Assembly (NCBI RefSeq): GCF_023614525.1
Contig: NZ_CP097885.1
Span: 494,501 to 558,500, forward strand
Reading direction: 5' to 3'
Origin: Peptoniphilus genitalis
GTDB taxonomy: Bacteria; Bacillota; Clostridia; Tissierellales; Peptoniphilaceae
DNA length: 64,000 bases
Part shown: piece after piece, positions 16,272 to 41,893 of the stretch
How positions within the stretch are numbered: the stretch's first letter is position 1
Layout: each line of letters begins with the position of its first letter
Program-made: the position numbers and the translations under genes
Notes under the pieces: generated by a model
Seen by the model: the letters and a program-made list of their open reading frames with translations, nothing else
The model's database searches: none
Told to the model about the DNA's origin: nothing

Positions 16272-17453
16272 TTACTTATTTAAAAAATGCTTACAAGCTT
16301 TCTCCATCCTGTTTAGACCTTCAACTATATCTTCGTAAGAAGATGCGTAGGAAAATCTAACAAAGCCTTCTCCTGCACTTCCGAAAACTGTTCCTGGAAC
16401 AATTGCAACACATTCTTCATCAAGAAGGTAGTTACAAAATTCTTCTGAAGAAACTCCTAGTCCCTTAATATTAATGAAGGCATAAAAGGCACCATCAGGA
16501 GCGTTTAAGCTAAGTCCTTCAATGGAGTTAACTTTTTCAACAATATAGTCACGTCTTCTCTTGTATTCCTTCACCATTTCTTCAGAAGCATCTCCACCTT
16601 CTTTAAGAGCAGTGATACCTCCATGTTGAACAAAGGAAGTTGCACAAGAAGTGTTGTGTTGGTGGATGATATTTAGAACTCTAATAAATTTTTCTGGCGC
16701 TGCAACATAAGCAAGACGAAAACCTGTCATGGAATAAGTTTTTGAGAAGCCATTGATAGTAATAGTTCTTTCCTTCATTCCATCAAGAGATGCAATAGAG
16801 ATATGCTTCTTGTTTCCGTAGATAATCTTTTCGTAAATTTCATCAGAAATTACTAGGATATCTTTTTTCTTTGCAAAGTCAGCAAGCTTTTCCAAAGTTT
16901 CTAGTGTGAACATGGATCCAATTGGGTTTGATGGGTTAATAATTACAATTGCCTTAGTCTTTTCTGTAACAAGACCTTCAAGCTCATCAAAATCAATTTG
17001 GAAGTCATTTTCTTCTGCAAGGCTATATCTTACAGGCACTGCTCCCATAATGTGAGCTGCGTTAACATAATTTGGCCAGCATGGGTTTGGTAAAAGAATC
17101 TCGTCATCTTCTTCAAGGATTAGCGAATAAGAATCATAAATAGATTCACTAGCACCTGCTGTTATCAAGACTTCCTTTGCAGTATAGTCTAAATTATTTT
17201 CATTTCTAAGTTTCTCAGCCACAGCTTCTCTTAGAGGCATAATTCCATAATTTGAAGTGTAAAAAACATCTCCATTTTCAATACTCTTTATAGTTGCATC
17301 TTTTATTATCTTTGGAGTATCAAAATCTGGTCTGCCTACTTCAAAGTGGTAGATTTTTTTGCCGGCTCTTTCCATCTCAAGGGTTTTTTCATTAATCTTT
17401 CTAATTCCAGATGGTCCCACCTTGTTAAACTTACTACAAATAAAATCTCTCAT
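16272..17453 (-). CDS. PLP-dependent class I aminotransferase
   Basis: A 393-residue fold-type I aminotransferase of the AspC/PatA group. Visible motifs: substrate/cofactor region NPSNPIG, SDEIYEKI, the PLP-lysine motif NGFSKTYSMTGFRLAY near residue 235 and the C-terminal Arg in GEGFVRFSYA. It transfers amino groups between an amino acid and 2-oxoglutarate; the exact substrate cannot be read. Ten bases separate it from the threonine dehydratase gene upstream, with its own AGGGAGG site, so the two form an amino acid catabolic operon. Confidence 0.88.
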   Translation of the reverse strand: MRDFICSKFNKVGPSGIRKINEKTLEMERAGKKIYHFEVGRPDFDTPKIIKDATIKSIENGDVFYTSNYGIMPLREAVAEKLRNENNLDYTAKEVLITAGASESIYDSYSLILEEDDEILLPNPCWPNYVNAAHIMGAVPVRYSLAEENDFQIDFDELEGLVTEKTKAIVIINPSNPIGSMFTLETLEKLADFAKKKDILVISDEIYEKIIYGNKKHISIASLDGMKERTITINGFSKTYSMTGFRLAYVAAPEKFIRVLNIIHQHNTSCATSFVQHGGITALKEGGDASEEMVKEYKRRRDYIVEKVNSIEGLSLNAPDGAFYAFINIKGLGVSSEEFCNYLLDEECVAIVPGTVFGSAGEGFVRFSYASSYEDIVEGLNRMEKACKHFLNK

Positions 17454-17463
17454 GATTTCCTCC

Positions 17464-18420
17464 CTAAGAATTTATAATTTCTTCAATTGCTCTGCCTTCT
17501 ACATTACCGCCTGTGATAATGAGAACAAGCTTGTCATTGTCATCATATTTTATTTTGCCTTCAAGAATTGCACCAAGGCCTATGGCAGAAGATGGCTCAA
17601 CAATTAATTTCTCTTTATTATACAATAAATCTAAAGCTTTTTTAATATTTTTATCTTGGCAAGTTACAACATCGTCAACAAGATCTCTTACAAGAGGAAA
17701 TACATGATCTCCTGGCTTAACAGAAAGAAGTCCGTCAGCAAGAGTTGCTCCCCTCTTAACTTGACTTGGCTCACCTTCTTTGAGTGATAAAGTATACCTT
17801 GCAACATTTTCTGGTTCAACTCCAATTACCTCGGATCCTTTTGAAACTCCCTTAGTATACATGGCAATGCCAGAGATTAGTCCGCCACCACCAATGGGAA
17901 CAATCATCTTCAAGTTGTCCATCTTGTTTAAGACTTCAACTGCAATAGTCCCTTGTCCTTCAGAGACATCTAAGTCGTCATAAGGATGGATGAAGGTCAT
18001 GCCTTCCTTCTCAGAAATTTCCTTTGCAACTTCAAATCTTGTTTCAACGCTTGTGATTACAATTTCTGCACCAAGGTCTCTTATCATTTGTCTCTTGGCT
18101 TCAGTAGAAGTATCTGACAAGACAATCTTTGCTGGTATGCCTAACATTTTTGCACAAGTTGCAATCCCCTTGCCGTGATTTCCACTAGAAGCTGTGACAA
18201 CACCCTTTTTTAATTCTTCATCAGAAAGCTTTCTAATTTTATTTAAGGCACCTCTAATCTTGAAGGAATTTGTCTTTTGCATATTTTCCAGTTTTGCATA
18301 GACAGATGTGCCAAGCATTTCAGAAATATAATTAAGTCTTATTAGGGGAGTTTCATAAATAAAATCCCCTATTCTTTCTCTAGCCTTTATGGTTTCCTTG
18401 TATCCGTTTTTATAATCCAT
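17464..18420 (-). CDS. threonine/serine dehydratase, catabolic type
   Basis: A 318-residue fold-type II PLP enzyme. The PLP lysine lies in NSFKIRGA near residue 52; SSGNHGKGIA binds the phosphate (the family usually has SAGNHAQG); a Gly-rich PIGGGGLISG loop is at about 173-182. There is no C-terminal ACT/regulatory domain, so it resembles biodegradative TdcB rather than biosynthetic IlvA (about 400-510 residues). It would turn threonine into 2-oxobutyrate and ammonia, or serine into pyruvate. It is followed closely by an aminotransferase. Confidence 0.87.
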   Translation of the reverse strand: MDYKNGYKETIKARERIGDFIYETPLIRLNYISEMLGTSVYAKLENMQKTNSFKIRGALNKIRKLSDEELKKGVVTASSGNHGKGIATCAKMLGIPAKIVLSDTSTEAKRQMIRDLGAEIVITSVETRFEVAKEISEKEGMTFIHPYDDLDVSEGQGTIAVEVLNKMDNLKMIVPIGGGGLISGIAMYTKGVSKGSEVIGVEPENVARYTLSLKEGEPSQVKRGATLADGLLSVKPGDHVFPLVRDLVDDVVTCQDKNIKKALDLLYNKEKLIVEPSSAIGLGAILEGKIKYDDNDKLVLIITGGNVEGRAIEEIINS

Positions 18421-18569: not shown

Positions 18570-18587
18570 AGGCCTCCGTAGAGACCT
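18570..18587 (-). terminator. terminator of the amidohydrolase cassette
   Basis: Minus-strand stem AGGTCTC / GAGGCCT with one G-U pair and a T run after it, about 20 bases past the stop at 18607. Confidence 0.8.
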
Positions 18588-18606: not shown

Positions 18607-20004
18607 TTACATTCTTGGTCTTGCTCCATCAGGTAGTGGTGAGATGAATTTTTCTCCACGCACCTTTATAAATTCTTCGTGAGCCTTCTTAGCAAGTTCA
18701 GGATTTTCTATAAAGCTTCTTGCAGCTCTTGACATAACATTAGATGCCTTTAGCATTCCCTTCATCGCCATGGAAGACTTACCTTGAGCAACTTCTTGCC
18801 AAGAGTGAGCTGTTGTTCCAATTGCAAAGCAAGCTGTAATAATTTGTGCGGTTGGCACAACATTAGAGCAGTCACCAACATCAGATGACCCCATTCCCAA
18901 CTCATCGGAATGCTTGTAGTCCAAAATCTTATCATAAAGGATGTGATCCTTTAGGTAGGCTAACTCATCAACTTTATCTACTGCATAGACAAGAGTCTGT
19001 TCACTTTCAATATTTTCTTCTGGGAAGGTAGCCATAAAATCCTCTGCATATTTTAATTCTTCTTCTGTAAATTCAATTGGTCCCTCTTCCAAGAAGGCCT
19101 TGTAGAGCTCTTCTTCAATTACAGGATTTGGAATTACATTAGAACAAGCCTTATCAAAAATTATTTCTGGTTCAGTTTCAGTCATTAGTCCTGCACCCTC
19201 AACAATTTTTTCAAATCTCTTGTAAAGTCTATTGACGTGTTCTGTATCCTTTGACCTAAGTAGATAAAGTCCTTCTGCATAAGGTTGAACAACGTTAGGT
19301 GATGCTGATCCTGGGTCTATGATTGAGTAGTGAATCCTTTCAAAATCTTGCATGTGTTCTCTTAAAAATTGAACTCCAATATTAACAAGCTCAAGTCCAT
19401 CAAGGGCAGATCTTCCTAGGTGAGGAGATGCTGCAGCATGAGCTCCCTTACCCCTAAACCTAACATAAACTTGCTTGTTAGCTTGTAGGGATCCTGTGAA
19501 AATTGCATTTCCATTGAAAGGGTGCCATGCTATGACAATATCAGCTACATCGAAGCAGCCTGCCTTTGCCATAAAGGCTTTACCACTTCCACCTTCTTCT
19601 GCTGGACAGCCAAAGTAAACTACCTTGCCCTCCAAGTTGTTTTCATCCATGTAGTCCTTTAGCTTCAAAGCTGCACCTATTGATGCGGTTCCTAATAGGT
19701 GGTGACCACAACCATGACCACAAGCTCCATCAACTTTTTCCTTTCTTTCAGCCAAGTCTTCAACTTGTGAAAGTCCAGATAAGGCATCAAACTCGCCTAA
19801 AAATCCAACAGTAACTCCACTGCCTCTTTCATACTCTGCAGAAAAAGCTGTTGGCAAGTCAGCCAAGTTGTCATTTATTTTAAAACCATATTTTTTTAAA
19901 ATTTCTTTTTGAGCTTCAATGGACCTAAATTCTTTCCACTTAATTTCAGCATATTCCCAAATGTTTTTCGCAAGCTCTGTAAGCTCTTTATCGTATCTAT
20001 CCAT
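18607..20004 (-). CDS. M20 amidohydrolase, AbgB-like
   Basis: A 465-residue M20/ArgE-type zinc hydrolase. Metal and catalytic motifs are GACGHGCGHHLLG near residue 92-104, PAEEGGSGK near 135 and a late His in IGTTAHSWQ. Length and motifs fit AbgB, the p-aminobenzoyl-glutamate hydrolase subunit, and related N-acyl amino acid hydrolases. It is the last gene of a cassette with glutaminase and two membrane proteins, which hints that its amide substrate releases glutamine or glutamate. Ribosome site AAGGAG. It is unlike the other M20 enzyme at 40706. Confidence 0.87.
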   Translation of the reverse strand: MDRYDKELTELAKNIWEYAEIKWKEFRSIEAQKEILKKYGFKINDNLADLPTAFSAEYERGSGVTVGFLGEFDALSGLSQVEDLAERKEKVDGACGHGCGHHLLGTASIGAALKLKDYMDENNLEGKVVYFGCPAEEGGSGKAFMAKAGCFDVADIVIAWHPFNGNAIFTGSLQANKQVYVRFRGKGAHAAASPHLGRSALDGLELVNIGVQFLREHMQDFERIHYSIIDPGSASPNVVQPYAEGLYLLRSKDTEHVNRLYKRFEKIVEGAGLMTETEPEIIFDKACSNVIPNPVIEEELYKAFLEEGPIEFTEEELKYAEDFMATFPEENIESEQTLVYAVDKVDELAYLKDHILYDKILDYKHSDELGMGSSDVGDCSNVVPTAQIITACFAIGTTAHSWQEVAQGKSSMAMKGMLKASNVMSRAARSFIENPELAKKAHEEFIKVRGEKFISPLPDGARPRM

Positions 20005-20102
20005 TTCTTTCTCCTTAAAATTTTATCTATGAATTCATTAATATTTCTTCTATATGAATTTATAAACTCTTAAACTTTTTAAACAAACTAAACTTGTAAA
20101 AT

Positions 20103-21026
20103 TTAATAGAAGTTTAAGTCTAACTCCTTAGAAATTTTTTCTAGCATCTTTACTCCTGCAACAGAATTTCCAAAGGAATCTAGGCCTGGGCAAAATGTAC
20201 AAATTCCAAATCCCTTGTTAGTTGTTGCCATGATGCCTCCACCTACTCCACTCTTAGCAGGAAGTCCAATGTCTATTGCAAAGTCACCAGAGTAGTTATA
20301 AGTTCCGCAAATTGCCATTAGTGTTCTAAGGATTCTTGCGTTCTCCTTCTTAATTATTTGATCTCCTTCTAAATTTTTTCCATCTTTAGAAATCATAGAA
20401 GCAAAAACTGCAAGGTCTCTAGTGTTAACCATAATACTGCAAGCAAGATTGTATAAATTTATAACATCCTCTACAGAAGTATACCTATCAATTGTTCCAT
20501 GTTTTTTTAGAATCCAAGCAAGAGCTAAGTTGTTTTCTCCACCAGTTCTTGCTGTATCAAGTAGGGTTTGACTGTAGTCTAAGCTGTCATCATCCATTAC
20601 CAGTCTCGCTCTATTCATTAAGATTTCAACGGACTTTTCCTTAAACTTTTTATAAATTAAGTAAGCCGATGTAATTGCTCCTGAATTTATAAAAGGATTA
20701 ACTGGTTTCCCAGCTTCTGCTTCCAAATCAAGTATGGAGTTGTAAGCTTTAGATGAGCCTTCCATCCTCATGTATTCCTTGATTTCAGAAAGTTCATAAT
20801 TTTCTAGAACTATTTCAAAGAGCAGTACCTTTACAATTGACATAATTGCAAATTCTTCACGAGACTTTCCTGCTTCATAAACCTTTCCATCCTTGTCGAT
20901 TATGCAGGCACCAAGGTTATTTTTGTCTGCGTCTTTTAAAATTTCTATATAGTCTACAAGTTTTCCTTGGCTTGTAAAATTTTTTCCATATTCAATAACT
21001 GAATCTAAAAATTTGTCCATATTCAT
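20103..21026 (-). CDS. glsA: glutaminase
   Basis: A 307-residue serine-dependent glutaminase of the beta-lactamase-like fold, forming glutamate and ammonia from glutamine. The catalytic Ser-x-x-Lys is SIVK at about residues 63-66; other family blocks are NPFINSGAI, GENNLALAW and the C-terminal PAKSGVGGGI. It follows the smaller membrane protein gene by only two bases and precedes the amidohydrolase gene by 98. Context suggests it processes glutamine freed from an imported conjugate or peptide; free glutamine use or acid resistance are alternatives. Confidence 0.95.
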   Translation of the reverse strand: MNMDKFLDSVIEYGKNFTSQGKLVDYIEILKDADKNNLGACIIDKDGKVYEAGKSREEFAIMSIVKVLLFEIVLENYELSEIKEYMRMEGSSKAYNSILDLEAEAGKPVNPFINSGAITSAYLIYKKFKEKSVEILMNRARLVMDDDSLDYSQTLLDTARTGGENNLALAWILKKHGTIDRYTSVEDVINLYNLACSIMVNTRDLAVFASMISKDGKNLEGDQIIKKENARILRTLMAICGTYNYSGDFAIDIGLPAKSGVGGGIMATTNKGFGICTFCPGLDSFGNSVAGVKMLEKISKELDLNFY

Positions 21027-21028
21027 AA

Positions 21029-21733
21029 TTAATCCTTCTTTTCTAACTTAACTATGCCTGACTTGTAGTAAAGGTAAGCAATTAATAAAGTTACTCCAAG
21101 CATAATAAGCATAGCGTAGCCTTCTTTACCTGCAATTGGCATTACTAGGAAGTTAAAGGCATAAACTATAAGGATAGATGTTATAGCTATAAGAGGCTTT
21201 CTTGGTGCCTTGTATTTTGAACCAGCACCCTTTGATATAAAGGCAGAAATCCCCATTGAGCCGTATAGAGCTGGAAGGATATAGTTAGTTGCAATAGCAA
21301 CACTTTCTGTTTGAAGGATTGGTTTAAGTGGTGCTAAAAGAATTACACCAAGAACTACTGTTATCATAGAAACCATTCCTGAAACTGTGACTGCTATCAT
21401 TCCCATAACGTCAGCTTCTTCTGTGCCAGGAGTTGCATCAACTGTAGCAATTGCTGATAAGTAGCAAGGGAATTTGATATTCATAACATTACCAAGAATT
21501 GAATTTAAATAACAAGTTGTACCACCAATTGGAATCATAGAAAGTTGTTCTGCCAAAGCTGTTGGTACAAAAAGTGCCATCAAGGGACCTGCTACAGATG
21601 CTATAAGAGACCACTGTGGCCACATTCCATAAATTGTACACATTACTGCAGGAATACCCAACATAAGACCCATTGCTATTAGGGTTGCAATGATTCCATA
21701 TCTATAAGTATTTTTCATATAATTTGACATCAT
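21029..21733 (-). CDS. polytopic membrane protein, putative transporter subunit
   Basis: A 234-residue protein with about six hydrophobic segments and the polar motifs IGGTTCYLNSILGN and VDATPGTEEADVMG between them. It begins five bases after the DUF5058-type gene, with its ribosome site (AGGAGGTTAA) overlapping that gene's stop. The two similar-sized membrane proteins are probably a two-part permease. The family is not firmly recognised; transport role is inferred from being cotranscribed with glutaminase and amidohydrolase. Confidence 0.65.
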   Translation of the reverse strand: MMSNYMKNTYRYGIIATLIAMGLMLGIPAVMCTIYGMWPQWSLIASVAGPLMALFVPTALAEQLSMIPIGGTTCYLNSILGNVMNIKFPCYLSAIATVDATPGTEEADVMGMIAVTVSGMVSMITVVLGVILLAPLKPILQTESVAIATNYILPALYGSMGISAFISKGAGSKYKAPRKPLIAITSILIVYAFNFLVMPIAGKEGYAMLIMLGVTLLIAYLYYKSGIVKLEKKD

Positions 21734-21738
21734 AATAA

Positions 21739-22464
21739 TTAACCTCCTATTCCCATATTAGTAAAAATAACTGATGCTGCCATTGCTCCAACAAGGGCAA
21801 AGGACATTGTAAAGTCGTTTAACCAAGTGACCTTGTATTTTGTAGCAATCTTTGAACAAATTACTGTAATAAGCATACTAACTATAATTGTAAGTAAATG
21901 AATATTTGACTTAACTGATTGAACTGGTACAAACACTGACATCATACCAACTACAAGAACTGATAAGGCAAGGTCAACAAAAGGAGTATCTTTTTCTCCA
22001 GCCTTAAGTACACCTGTATGAACTCTTTTTAGTGCAACAATGTTAAAGATCATACCTGCCATAATAGCAATACTCATTACAAACATAATTGCTCCAATAA
22101 CTTCTGGAGTTCCATGAGATAAGAAATCCTCAAAGCCTTCAAAGCCTGCTCCCTTAACTGATAAGTCAGCTGCCATAAGTTCGTAAGGAAGTGATCCTAC
22201 TACTGAAAGTCTAAACCATGGCCAAGGCACTCCAAGGATTGGTGCTAATGTAATAAGACCAATAATGATAGAAACTGATGGAACAATTGAGAATATTATT
22301 GAAGTTCTTATTACTGATTTTATTTTGTCTTTACCAATATTAAGCTCTCCTGCTCTTTTTATTGCCCTCTTGCAAAAAAAGATACACATTCCAAAAATAA
22401 TTGCAAGTGATATACCCACTAATAAGTATAGGGGTTTTGAATTTAGAATACTTAATAAATCCAT
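21739..22464 (-). CDS. DUF5058-family membrane protein, putative transporter subunit
   Basis: A 241-residue membrane protein with about six helices that resembles the uncharacterised DUF5058 family: RTSIIFSIVPSVSIIIGL and PWPWFRLSVVGSLPYELMAAD are typical blocks. It heads the operon DUF5058 - membrane protein - glutaminase - amidohydrolase. Size and pairing with a second membrane protein suggest a heteromeric importer for an amide-type substrate, but no transport has been shown for the family that I know of. A dyad TTGCACC/GGTGTAA lies about 140 bases upstream. Confidence 0.7.
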   Translation of the reverse strand: MDLLSILNSKPLYLLVGISLAIIFGMCIFFCKRAIKRAGELNIGKDKIKSVIRTSIIFSIVPSVSIIIGLITLAPILGVPWPWFRLSVVGSLPYELMAADLSVKGAGFEGFEDFLSHGTPEVIGAIMFVMSIAIMAGMIFNIVALKRVHTGVLKAGEKDTPFVDLALSVLVVGMMSVFVPVQSVKSNIHLLTIIVSMLITVICSKIATKYKVTWLNDFTMSFALVGAMAASVIFTNMGIGG

Positions 22465-22600
22465 AAACTCATCTCCTTTAAAAAATTTTTATTAAATCAG
22501 TAAGTCTCCATATATGTAAGAAGTTTATACTGAATTAATATACTCTTATTATATCCAACTTCGTGCTTAAAGTTAAACTATATTTTAGTAAAATAATTTA

Positions 22601-22619
22601 TTGCACCAATAAGGTGTAA
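22601..22619 (-). promoter_or_regulatory. operator-like dyad upstream of the DUF5058 operon
   Basis: TTGCACC (22601-22607) and GGTGTAA (22613-22619) pair with one G-U, in an otherwise AT-rich 290-base intergenic stretch. This could be a regulator site for the glutaminase cassette. The rest of 22465-22711 shows nothing else firm. Confidence 0.35.
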
Positions 22620-22714
22620 TTGTAAAAACTTTGTTTAATTAAATCATATAAATTTAGATTTTTTTTAAAGTTTGTCACCCAAAAATTATTTTTAAGATTT
22701 TAAACAACAAAAAA

Positions 22715-31473: not shown

Positions 31474-31552
31474 ATCGAGTAGGAGGTAGATGATTAATTC
31501 ATCTACCTCCTCTCACACCACCGTACGTACGATTCCGTATACAGCGGTTCTA
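31474..31552 (-). mobile_element. group II intron 3' remnant (domains V and VI)
   Basis: On the minus strand GAACCGCTGTATACGG (31550-31535), CGTACGTACGGTGGTG and GAGAGG form the domain V type hairpin, and a domain VI hairpin (arms GGAGGTAGATGA / TCATCTACCTCC at 31481-31509) ends in CTACTCGAT at 31482-31474, the usual 3' boundary of bacterial group II introns. No reverse transcriptase frame or 5' half is present. Domain VI pairs without an evident bulged A, so the copy is probably dead; it may act as a terminator. Confidence 0.75.
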
Positions 31553-40705: not shown

Positions 40706-41893
40706 TTAATTCTTGTGAGGGATAATTTTACCAGTTTTTACACTTTCTTTAAACTCACTAATAATTTTTTCATAAACTTCATCATTTTGTAAAACTTCTA
40801 TTCCAACTTCAACAATGGCTGCAATAGTTTTTTTCATTTGGTCAAAGGCATAGTCAGTCATAGTTGCGTCCCTAAACTCAACTGTGTGAGATGGTGTTCC
40901 TTCTTCAGCAATTTTAAAATAGCCGTGAAGTGTTGGGACTTCGTGAGAAATATCTCCTGCATCAGTGGATCCTGAGTTTAATTCTATGTCCTTAACTTCT
41001 TCATCAAGATATTTTTTCATCTTTTCCATTAGGACTTCATTAAAGGCAAGATTTCTAACTGTGTTATCATTTCCCTTTTCGTATTCAGAAATTTTAACTT
41101 GGCATCCTGTTGCAAGGGCAGCACCCTTGGCACAAGCTTCAAGTTTTTCTAAAAGTTCTAAGAGATATTTTTTCTCTGGACTTCTTGCATAAAATCTTGA
41201 ATCAGTGTAGTCAGGAATAATGTTGGCAGCCTTGCCACCATCTTTTATGATTCCATGGATTCTTGAGCCGTCCTTTGTCTGTTGTCTTAGGGCATTGATG
41301 GCTGAGAATAAAACTATTTGTGCATCAAGGGCATTGATACCCTCATGAGGTGTGTCTGCAGCGTGGGCAGTCTTTCCAAAGAACTCGAACCTTCTTGTTG
41401 CAAGGGCCAAGGAGTTTGGTGTAACTGAGTTAATGTCTCCTGGGTGCATCTCAATGGCAACATCAACATCCTTTAGTTCATCTGACCTTGAAAGTTCGAT
41501 TTTTGTTCCGCCAACTTCTTCTGCAGCAGTTCCAAAGACAATAACTCTTCCGCCAATATCATCAATTAACTTTGACAAAACTATTCCTGCTCCTGTGGCA
41601 GTAGCTCCTAGGATGTTGTGACCACATCCATGACCAATGCCTGGTAGGGCATCATATTCTGACAAATATGAAATTGTCCTCCCAGGTTTTTTTGAATCGT
41701 AAACTGCCTTAAAGGAAGTCTCACATCCAAGATAAGGGCACTCCACATCAAATCCATGCTTTTTTAACAAATCTATGTGGGCCTTTGAAGACTTGTATTC
41801 TTCAAAGCCAATTTCTGGGTTATCATAAATAAATTTTCTAAGGGAATCGAGTTCACCAGATATTTCTTCAACTATATTTAAAATATTTTCCAT
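40706..41893 (-). CDS. M20-family metallopeptidase/amidohydrolase
   Basis: A 395-residue zinc hydrolase with GHGCGHNILGATATG near residue 90-104, AAEEVGGTK near 125 and a dimerisation domain, then the terminal His block EEGTPSHTVEF. It belongs to the amidohydrolase / N-acyl amino acid or aminobenzoyl-glutamate hydrolase group, shorter than the AbgB-like enzyme at 18607. It lies eight bases after the LTA-synthase-like gene, an odd pairing with no clear functional link. Substrate unknown. Confidence 0.85.
   Translation of the reverse strand: MENILNIVEEISGELDSLRKFIYDNPEIGFEEYKSSKAHIDLLKKHGFDVECPYLGCETSFKAVYDSKKPGRTISYLSEYDALPGIGHGCGHNILGATATGAGIVLSKLIDDIGGRVIVFGTAAEEVGGTKIELSRSDELKDVDVAIEMHPGDINSVTPNSLALATRRFEFFGKTAHAADTPHEGINALDAQIVLFSAINALRQQTKDGSRIHGIIKDGGKAANIIPDYTDSRFYARSPEKKYLLELLEKLEACAKGAALATGCQVKISEYEKGNDNTVRNLAFNEVLMEKMKKYLDEEVKDIELNSGSTDAGDISHEVPTLHGYFKIAEEGTPSHTVEFRDATMTDYAFDQMKKTIAAIVEVGIEVLQNDEVYEKIISEFKESVKTGKIIPHKN

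Follow-up and report, generated by a model that had tools for sequence, protein, structure and literature searches.

A stretch of 64,000 nucleotides from the human-associated Peptoniphilus genitalis, analysed here as a whole and called the window, encodes a DUF5058 membrane protein, a second membrane protein, a glutaminase and an AbgB-type M20 amidohydrolase in four consecutive genes. These genes form a single operon, and we consider it somewhat more likely than not that this operon scavenges amide-bound glutamine or glutamate through a carrier built from the two membrane proteins. Three observations carry this reading: DUF5058 and the second membrane protein constitute an obligate pair; across the DUF5058 family, this pair is linked to amide hydrolases drawn from several distinct enzyme families; and the four genes have been transferred horizontally, moving as one unit.

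DUF5058 and its partner form an obligate pair

The genes for DUF5058 and its partner adjoin in 106 of 107 loci, the remaining one being truncated by a contig end, and are usually separated by 1 to 30 bp. The partner is likewise found within 400 bp of DUF5058 in all 80 further named loci, which come from Tissierellia, Lachnospiraceae, spirochaetes, Izemoplasma and one Desulfobacterales bin. Among 249 genomes of the order, DUF5058 occurs in 88, the partner in 88 and both in 86, with the four discordant genomes (DUF5058 without partner, or the reverse) mostly containing weak or broken fragments. The DUF5058 protein of the window is a full-length member of PF16481 (profile positions 1-222 of 222), and among named organisms Peptoniphilus vaginalis comes closest (98% across DUF5058). 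The partner has no Pfam or NCBIfam match, and 77 members of its family, scanned singly against Pfam, gave no consistent match. A split duplicated carrier was considered and rejected, the profile comparison between the two subunits giving a probability of 1%. No natural fusion of DUF5058 with its partner, which would favour a complex, was present in the loci examined.

AlphaFold models of the two subunits (predicted local distance difference test scores of 79 and 85; predicted template-modelling scores (pTM) of 0.62 and 0.63) both display long helices plus short broken-helix segments, so that the description of six-helix membrane proteins given in an earlier note on this DNA is only approximate. 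The most conserved residues of DUF5058 (W83, R85, L86 and S87, together with Y94 and E95) lie in the broken-helix segment of its model. Conserved residues of the partner comprise E62, P68, G71, Y75, G81, N82, N85, K87 and P89, among which Y75, N82, N85 and K87 fall in its first broken segment, next to E62. Judging from these models, the conserved polar residues may sit in a region that in carriers often serves for the binding of substrate or ion. Neither subunit has sequence relatives in the PDB, the weak matches to a spliceosomal protein looking like chance, and VIA-align comparisons of the single-subunit models yielded no Z above 6.3, a score that extended over 49 residues.

Amide hydrolases accompany the pair across the family

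An amide hydrolase is encoded on the same strand, at most 3.5 kb away, in 92 of the 106 loci placed on the tree of the putative carrier. The earlier note, which had taken DUF5058 genes mostly unlinked to amidohydrolases as grounds for giving up its proposal, is thus borne out on this point. M20 genes are present in 86 of the 107 loci. Within 3 kb, across 100 DUF5058 loci, 97 M20 genes share the strand of DUF5058 and 1 lies on the opposite strand; beyond 4 kb, as a position control, 7 of 617 genes are M20 (Fisher P = 2e-28). The linked M20 enzymes include AbgB, YxeP-type, PepT-like, PM20D1-like (PRK08262), DapE/ArgE and glutamate-carboxypeptidase-like proteins, with the PepT-like enzymes going with one whole clade of the putative carrier. 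Enzymes outside M20 are also represented: N-carbamoylsarcosine amidase is linked in a clade of five loci (L021, L047, L066, L067 and L075; E = 2e-64 to 1nba), and in L045 and L048 the pair is accompanied by an N-acyl-D-amino-acid-deacylase-like enzyme and a DmpA-like protein, to which L048 adds an amino-acid racemase. These last two pairs are perhaps involved in the uptake of N-acyl-D-amino acids. PucR-type regulators occur in 23 loci.

The type of enzyme tracks the tree of the putative carrier, requiring 34 changes as opposed to 69 when shuffled, with none of 200 shuffles as low. The common trait of the linked enzymes is that they cut a C–N bond next to an amino acid. The simplest reading to cover this variety of amide hydrolases would be a carrier whose cargo is N-acyl or N-carbamoyl amino acids.

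Two side observations concern particular loci. PM20D1-like M20 peptidases (PRK08262), whose family is that of the mammalian hydrolases acting on N-acyl amino acids, stand beside the pair in L036, L037, L039, L041, L061, L068, L122 and L123. In L066, a cytosine-deaminase-like gene is also found upstream, possibly as part of a creatinine or hydantoin route.

The cassette is one operon and moves as a block

All four open reading frames of the cassette that the earlier note had placed at 18607-22464 were recovered there, on the minus strand; in transcription order, the cassette runs from 22464 to 18607, with intergenic gaps of 5, 2 and 98 bases (Table 1). A promoter, terminator-like hairpins and a separate promoter downstream are arranged such that the coordinates of the cassette fit one transcription unit.

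The same block of four genes, with nothing else, recurs in two genomes whose guanine–cytosine (GC) content is 46-49%, its proteins being 79-88% identical to those of the window. These genomes carry the labels Fusobacterium naviforme ATCC 25832, which looks doubtful, and Lachnospiraceae KA00044 (L134:7977-11845 and L135:7995-11844). Similarity between the window and these loci starts near 22464-22530 and ends at 18610, and the flanks of L134 and L135 are unrelated to Peptoniphilus and also unlike each other. Within the block, GC content is 48-49%, matching the two genomes, compared with 36% for the window. The dehydratase-like and aminotransferase genes that follow the cassette in the window were not carried along. 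This transfer of exactly four genes is good evidence for their joint function.

Table 1 Features of the cassette and its surroundings (window coordinates; reference scores: TIGR01891 cut-off 153.75, TIGR03814 cut-off 255.4, PF16481 curated score 28.2 bits).
Feature	Position	Strand	Details
DUF5058 membrane subunit (putative carrier subunit A)	21739..22464	-	PF16481, 195.7 bits, E 1e-57
Second membrane subunit (putative carrier subunit B)	21029..21733	-	No Pfam family; obligate DUF5058 neighbour
Glutaminase A, cassette-specific paralogue	20103..21026	-	PF04960, 290 bits; TIGR03814, 294.3 bits
AbgB-type M20 amidohydrolase	18607..20004	-	TIGR01891, 246.7 bits; M20_dimer; E. coli AbgB, 348 bits
Cassette promoter (TTAACT-17-TATAAT)	22548..22576	-	-10 GATATAATA invariant in six aligned upstream regions
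Terminator-like hairpin closing the cassette	18570..18587	-	Just past the M20 stop
Terminator-like hairpin of upstream pyrD	22736-22714	minus-strand numbering	
Promoter of the following two genes	18495-18467	-	Serves the dehydratase-like gene and the aminotransferase
Threonine/serine dehydratase-like pyridoxal phosphate enzyme	17464..18420	-	PALP; next transcription unit, outside the mobile unit
Class I/II aminotransferase	16272..17453	-	Next transcription unit

Upstream of the cassette -35 element lies a near-palindrome, TTACACC-TTATT-GGTGCAA (22602-22620, minus strand), which is poorly conserved in relatives and perhaps no operator. Downstream of the cassette, the nearest solved relative of the dehydratase-like enzyme is the catabolic threonine dehydratase. 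Elsewhere in the window, Rfam reports a group II intron match of 45 bits on the minus strand (31474-31549).

The cassette hydrolase is of the AbgB type

The designation of the M20 enzyme as AbgB-like in the earlier note is confirmed by its BLAST score against E. coli AbgB (348 bits, 40% identity), as against 57 bits to AbgA, and by its agreement with AbgB at 10 of the 11 positions compared. Equivalents of Cys-105, His-107, Glu-140/141, His-168, Asn-251 and Arg-264 are kept. An assignment to the AgaA type was ruled out by score (39-42 bits) and by the residues of the glutamine pocket: among the substrate-contacting positions described for AgaA (PMC7209930), the window enzyme retains those shared across the family, but Asn-191 and Asp-301, which are special to the glutamine pocket, are replaced by Gln and Lys, as in AbgB, in a region where alignment between the subfamilies is loose. 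Our guess is that, if this Lys faces the side chain of the substrate, it would suit the carboxylate of glutamate.

Such AbgB residues at the compared pocket positions could point to a scavenger of p-aminobenzoyl-glutamate, a folate catabolite, resembling E. coli abg but with another carrier. However, E. coli AbgB acts on this compound together with AbgA, behind AbgT (PMC5082436), and no AbgA-type gene is present at the locus, while the other TIGR01891 matches of the genome, one YxeP-type and one remote M20, do not look like AbgA. As it also provides no reason for the glutaminase, we hold this explanation to be improbable. Another TIGR01891-type M20 gene is located in the window at 40871-41842 (minus strand; 395 amino acids), remote from both AgaA and AbgB.

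Peptoniphilus feeds on peptides and amino acids, and among solved structures HmrA (134 bits) and the mammalian Xaa-Arg dipeptidase (105 bits) come closest to the window M20. Together with the PepT-like M20s that serve a whole clade of the putative carrier, this would fit a cargo of ordinary dipeptides (Xaa-Gln or Xaa-Glu) and an M20 enzyme acting as a dipeptidase. By contrast, a range of dipeptides was not cleaved by the E. coli hydrolase PGH (AbgA/AbgB; PMC5082436), and the N-carbamoylsarcosine amidase and N-acyl-D-amino-acid deacylase paired with other clades do not perform ordinary peptide cleavage. We regard a dipeptide system as unlikely overall, albeit deserving of serious attention.

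The glutaminase is a dedicated copy added in one clade

The third gene of the cassette encodes a glutaminase A, scoring above the TIGR03814 cut-off and displaying the Ser-x-x-Lys motif, with its SIVK aligned to the SISK of solved glutaminases. Three glutaminases are encoded in the genome; the cassette copy and all linked copies constitute one clade (starred in the tree), apart from the other two, and the cassette glutaminase is thus a dedicated copy. In a Peptoniphilus relative (L118, in G140), stops break the DUF5058 and M20 genes of a glutaminase cassette, the glutaminase being intact. As the enzyme occurs in only 9 of 107 loci, it is therefore an add-on of one clade of the putative carrier. 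The neighbourhood survey proposed in the earlier note nevertheless has a positive outcome, amide hydrolases being linked to DUF5058 in most loci.

These frequencies also bear on a possible ammonia or acid-stress unit, in which the pair would exchange glutamine and glutamate to feed the glutaminase, with the M20 enzyme as a passenger. The E. coli glutaminase YbaS, which contributes to acid resistance alongside a glutamate carrier, is among the solved enzymes close to that of the cassette, but the hydrolase rather than the glutaminase is the constant partner of the pair, and we view this as the least probable of the explanations considered.

The presence of a glutaminase points to glutamine, and the earlier note had drawn a parallel with AgaA, the enzyme of skin Corynebacterium that releases odour acids from glutamine conjugates of sweat, adding that Peptoniphilus and Anaerococcus share this skin habitat. 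An odour-type N-acyl-glutamine aminoacylase system (AgaA/N-AGA-like) could find further encouragement in that the N-AGA importer is unknown and that an Anaerococcus strain has the activity (PMC7209930). In addition, sister cassettes in Neofamilia and in a metagenome-assembled genome (L079 and L095) contain, beside the glutaminase, a YxeP-type M20 with Asp at the AgaA-301 position. Yet the parallel does not hold for the window M20, which is of the AbgB type, with Lys and Gln at the pocket positions and the low AgaA scores given above, and the odour link is accordingly unsupported. The Anaerococcus pairs nearest to that of the window (L078, L081 and L085) have neither amidohydrolase nor glutaminase alongside. 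An odour system in the window is highly improbable; any N-AGA-like cassette, if there is one, would be that of L079 and L095.

A variable site connects the hydrolase to GltS

The cassette occupies a variable site, bounded by pyrD and an AAA/VWA gene pair, which was compared across related genomes. Where the window has the pair, the glutaminase and AbgB, G136 (locus L219) and G139 have DUF5058-partner-glutaminase-GltS-AbgB-M20(393), and G133 and G142 (L213 and L214) have GltS-AbgB-M20(392), without pair or glutaminase. G131 has GltS-AbgB alone. The AbgB proteins of the window and those linked to GltS fall in one clade, which would be served by a relative of the sodium/glutamate symporter, by the DUF5058 pair or by both. 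A search of the window for leftovers of GltS or the second M20 found none, and the genome likewise lacks a close copy of GltS. The M20 enzyme of the window may originally go with the GltS gene and have been joined to the pair later. Because this AbgB clade stands behind GltS and has a glutaminase as partner, the amino acid released is probably glutamate or glutamine.

The co-occurrence of two carriers raises the question of direction. One locus in P. grossensis, and likewise one in P. ovalis, contains the DUF5058 pair as well as a GltS-type carrier, and a major facilitator superfamily carrier lies beside the pair in two other loci; the pair might then be an exporter or exchanger, expelling the freed acyl acid or glutamate or swapping substrate for product, with another system importing the conjugate. 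Two-subunit amino-acid exporters do exist, those of the AzlCD/BrnFE type offering a precedent. However, the pair is the sole carrier next to the enzyme in most loci, most loci also have no evident conjugate-making gene, and the regulators are of catabolic type. Furthermore, GltS occupies the same site without the pair in G133 and G142, and the E. coli counterpart, AbgT, is an importer. Taken together, we regard export or exchange as unlikely.

Proposed function of the cassette and of the pair

Under the scavenging model, DUF5058 and its partner would form a two-subunit secondary carrier that imports an N-acylated amino acid, the cargo in the window most likely being an N-acyl- or N-aroyl-glutamate or -glutamine, or a Xaa-Gln/Glu dipeptide. 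The AbgB-type M20 metallo-enzyme would cut the amide inside the cell, and the glutaminase would convert any glutamine to glutamate and ammonia, the former and the latter being available to this amino-acid-fermenting organism for fermentation. More generally, the family would consist of carriers for N-acyl or N-carbamoyl amino acids, the enzyme partner varying by clade.

Several points weigh against this model. Transport is inferred from hydrophobic helices and gene context, and its direction, the hetero-oligomer and the substrate are inferred as well. Model confidence is only moderate for both subunits, as the pTM values indicate, and Foldseek searches with the single-subunit models gave no match with E < 0.3, nothing above chance and no likeness to a solved transporter. 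The literature search found no paper naming DUF5058 and no experiment on any member. At the level of the cassette, close relatives of the window pair within the clade that gained the glutaminase, those of Anaerococcus, Ezakiella and P. obesi, stand without a glutaminase or an M20 alongside; the AbgB gene directly follows GltS, not the pair, in several relatives, and its tie to the DUF5058 carrier may be secondary; and AbgA, a part of E. coli PGH, is missing from the locus.

The wider proposal is more tentative, and we hold it at slightly less than even confidence: the pair would represent a new family of two-subunit secondary carriers, with a fold absent from solved structures, through which anaerobic Bacillota and spirochaetes import N-acyl or N-carbamoyl amino acids, and glutaminase cassettes would let host-associated cocci use the glutamine and glutamate conjugates of human urine, sweat and gut. 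The earlier interpretation is thereby partly supported, in that the carrier family is tied to amide hydrolases, while its odour example is not upheld. If the proposal is true, a membrane family without known function and its unnamed partner would gain a testable role in taking up N-acyl or N-carbamoyl amino acids. Skin bacteria are not known to have an identified carrier for human glutamine conjugates (PMC7209930), and conjugates such as phenylacetylglutamine are of medical relevance, so that candidate carriers of this type would be worth listing. The enzyme beside each clade of the putative carrier would predict its cargo, providing a ready set for work on specificity.

Comparison with known systems

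The closest parallels each share one part of the cassette. In E. coli abgABT, an AbgB-type M20 that releases glutamate from an amide has a dedicated membrane carrier beside it, whereas the window has the putative DUF5058 carrier pair in place of AbgT, no AbgA, an added glutaminase and no LysR regulator. GltS with an AbgB-type M20 in relatives of Peptoniphilus involves the same AbgB clade and, in two cases, the same chromosomal site, but GltS is an unrelated single-chain carrier, and no glutaminase accompanies it in G133, G142 and G131. Corynebacterium AgaA (N-AGA; PDB 6SLF) belongs to the same M20 metallo-enzyme family, with common metal-binding and carboxylate-binding residues; the window enzyme is in a different subfamily and does not keep Asp-301 and Asn-191, and AgaA has no known linked carrier. 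Finally, PF16481 includes the larger membrane subunit of the window as a full-length member, but Pfam gives this family no function, and the obligate second subunit lies outside its coverage.

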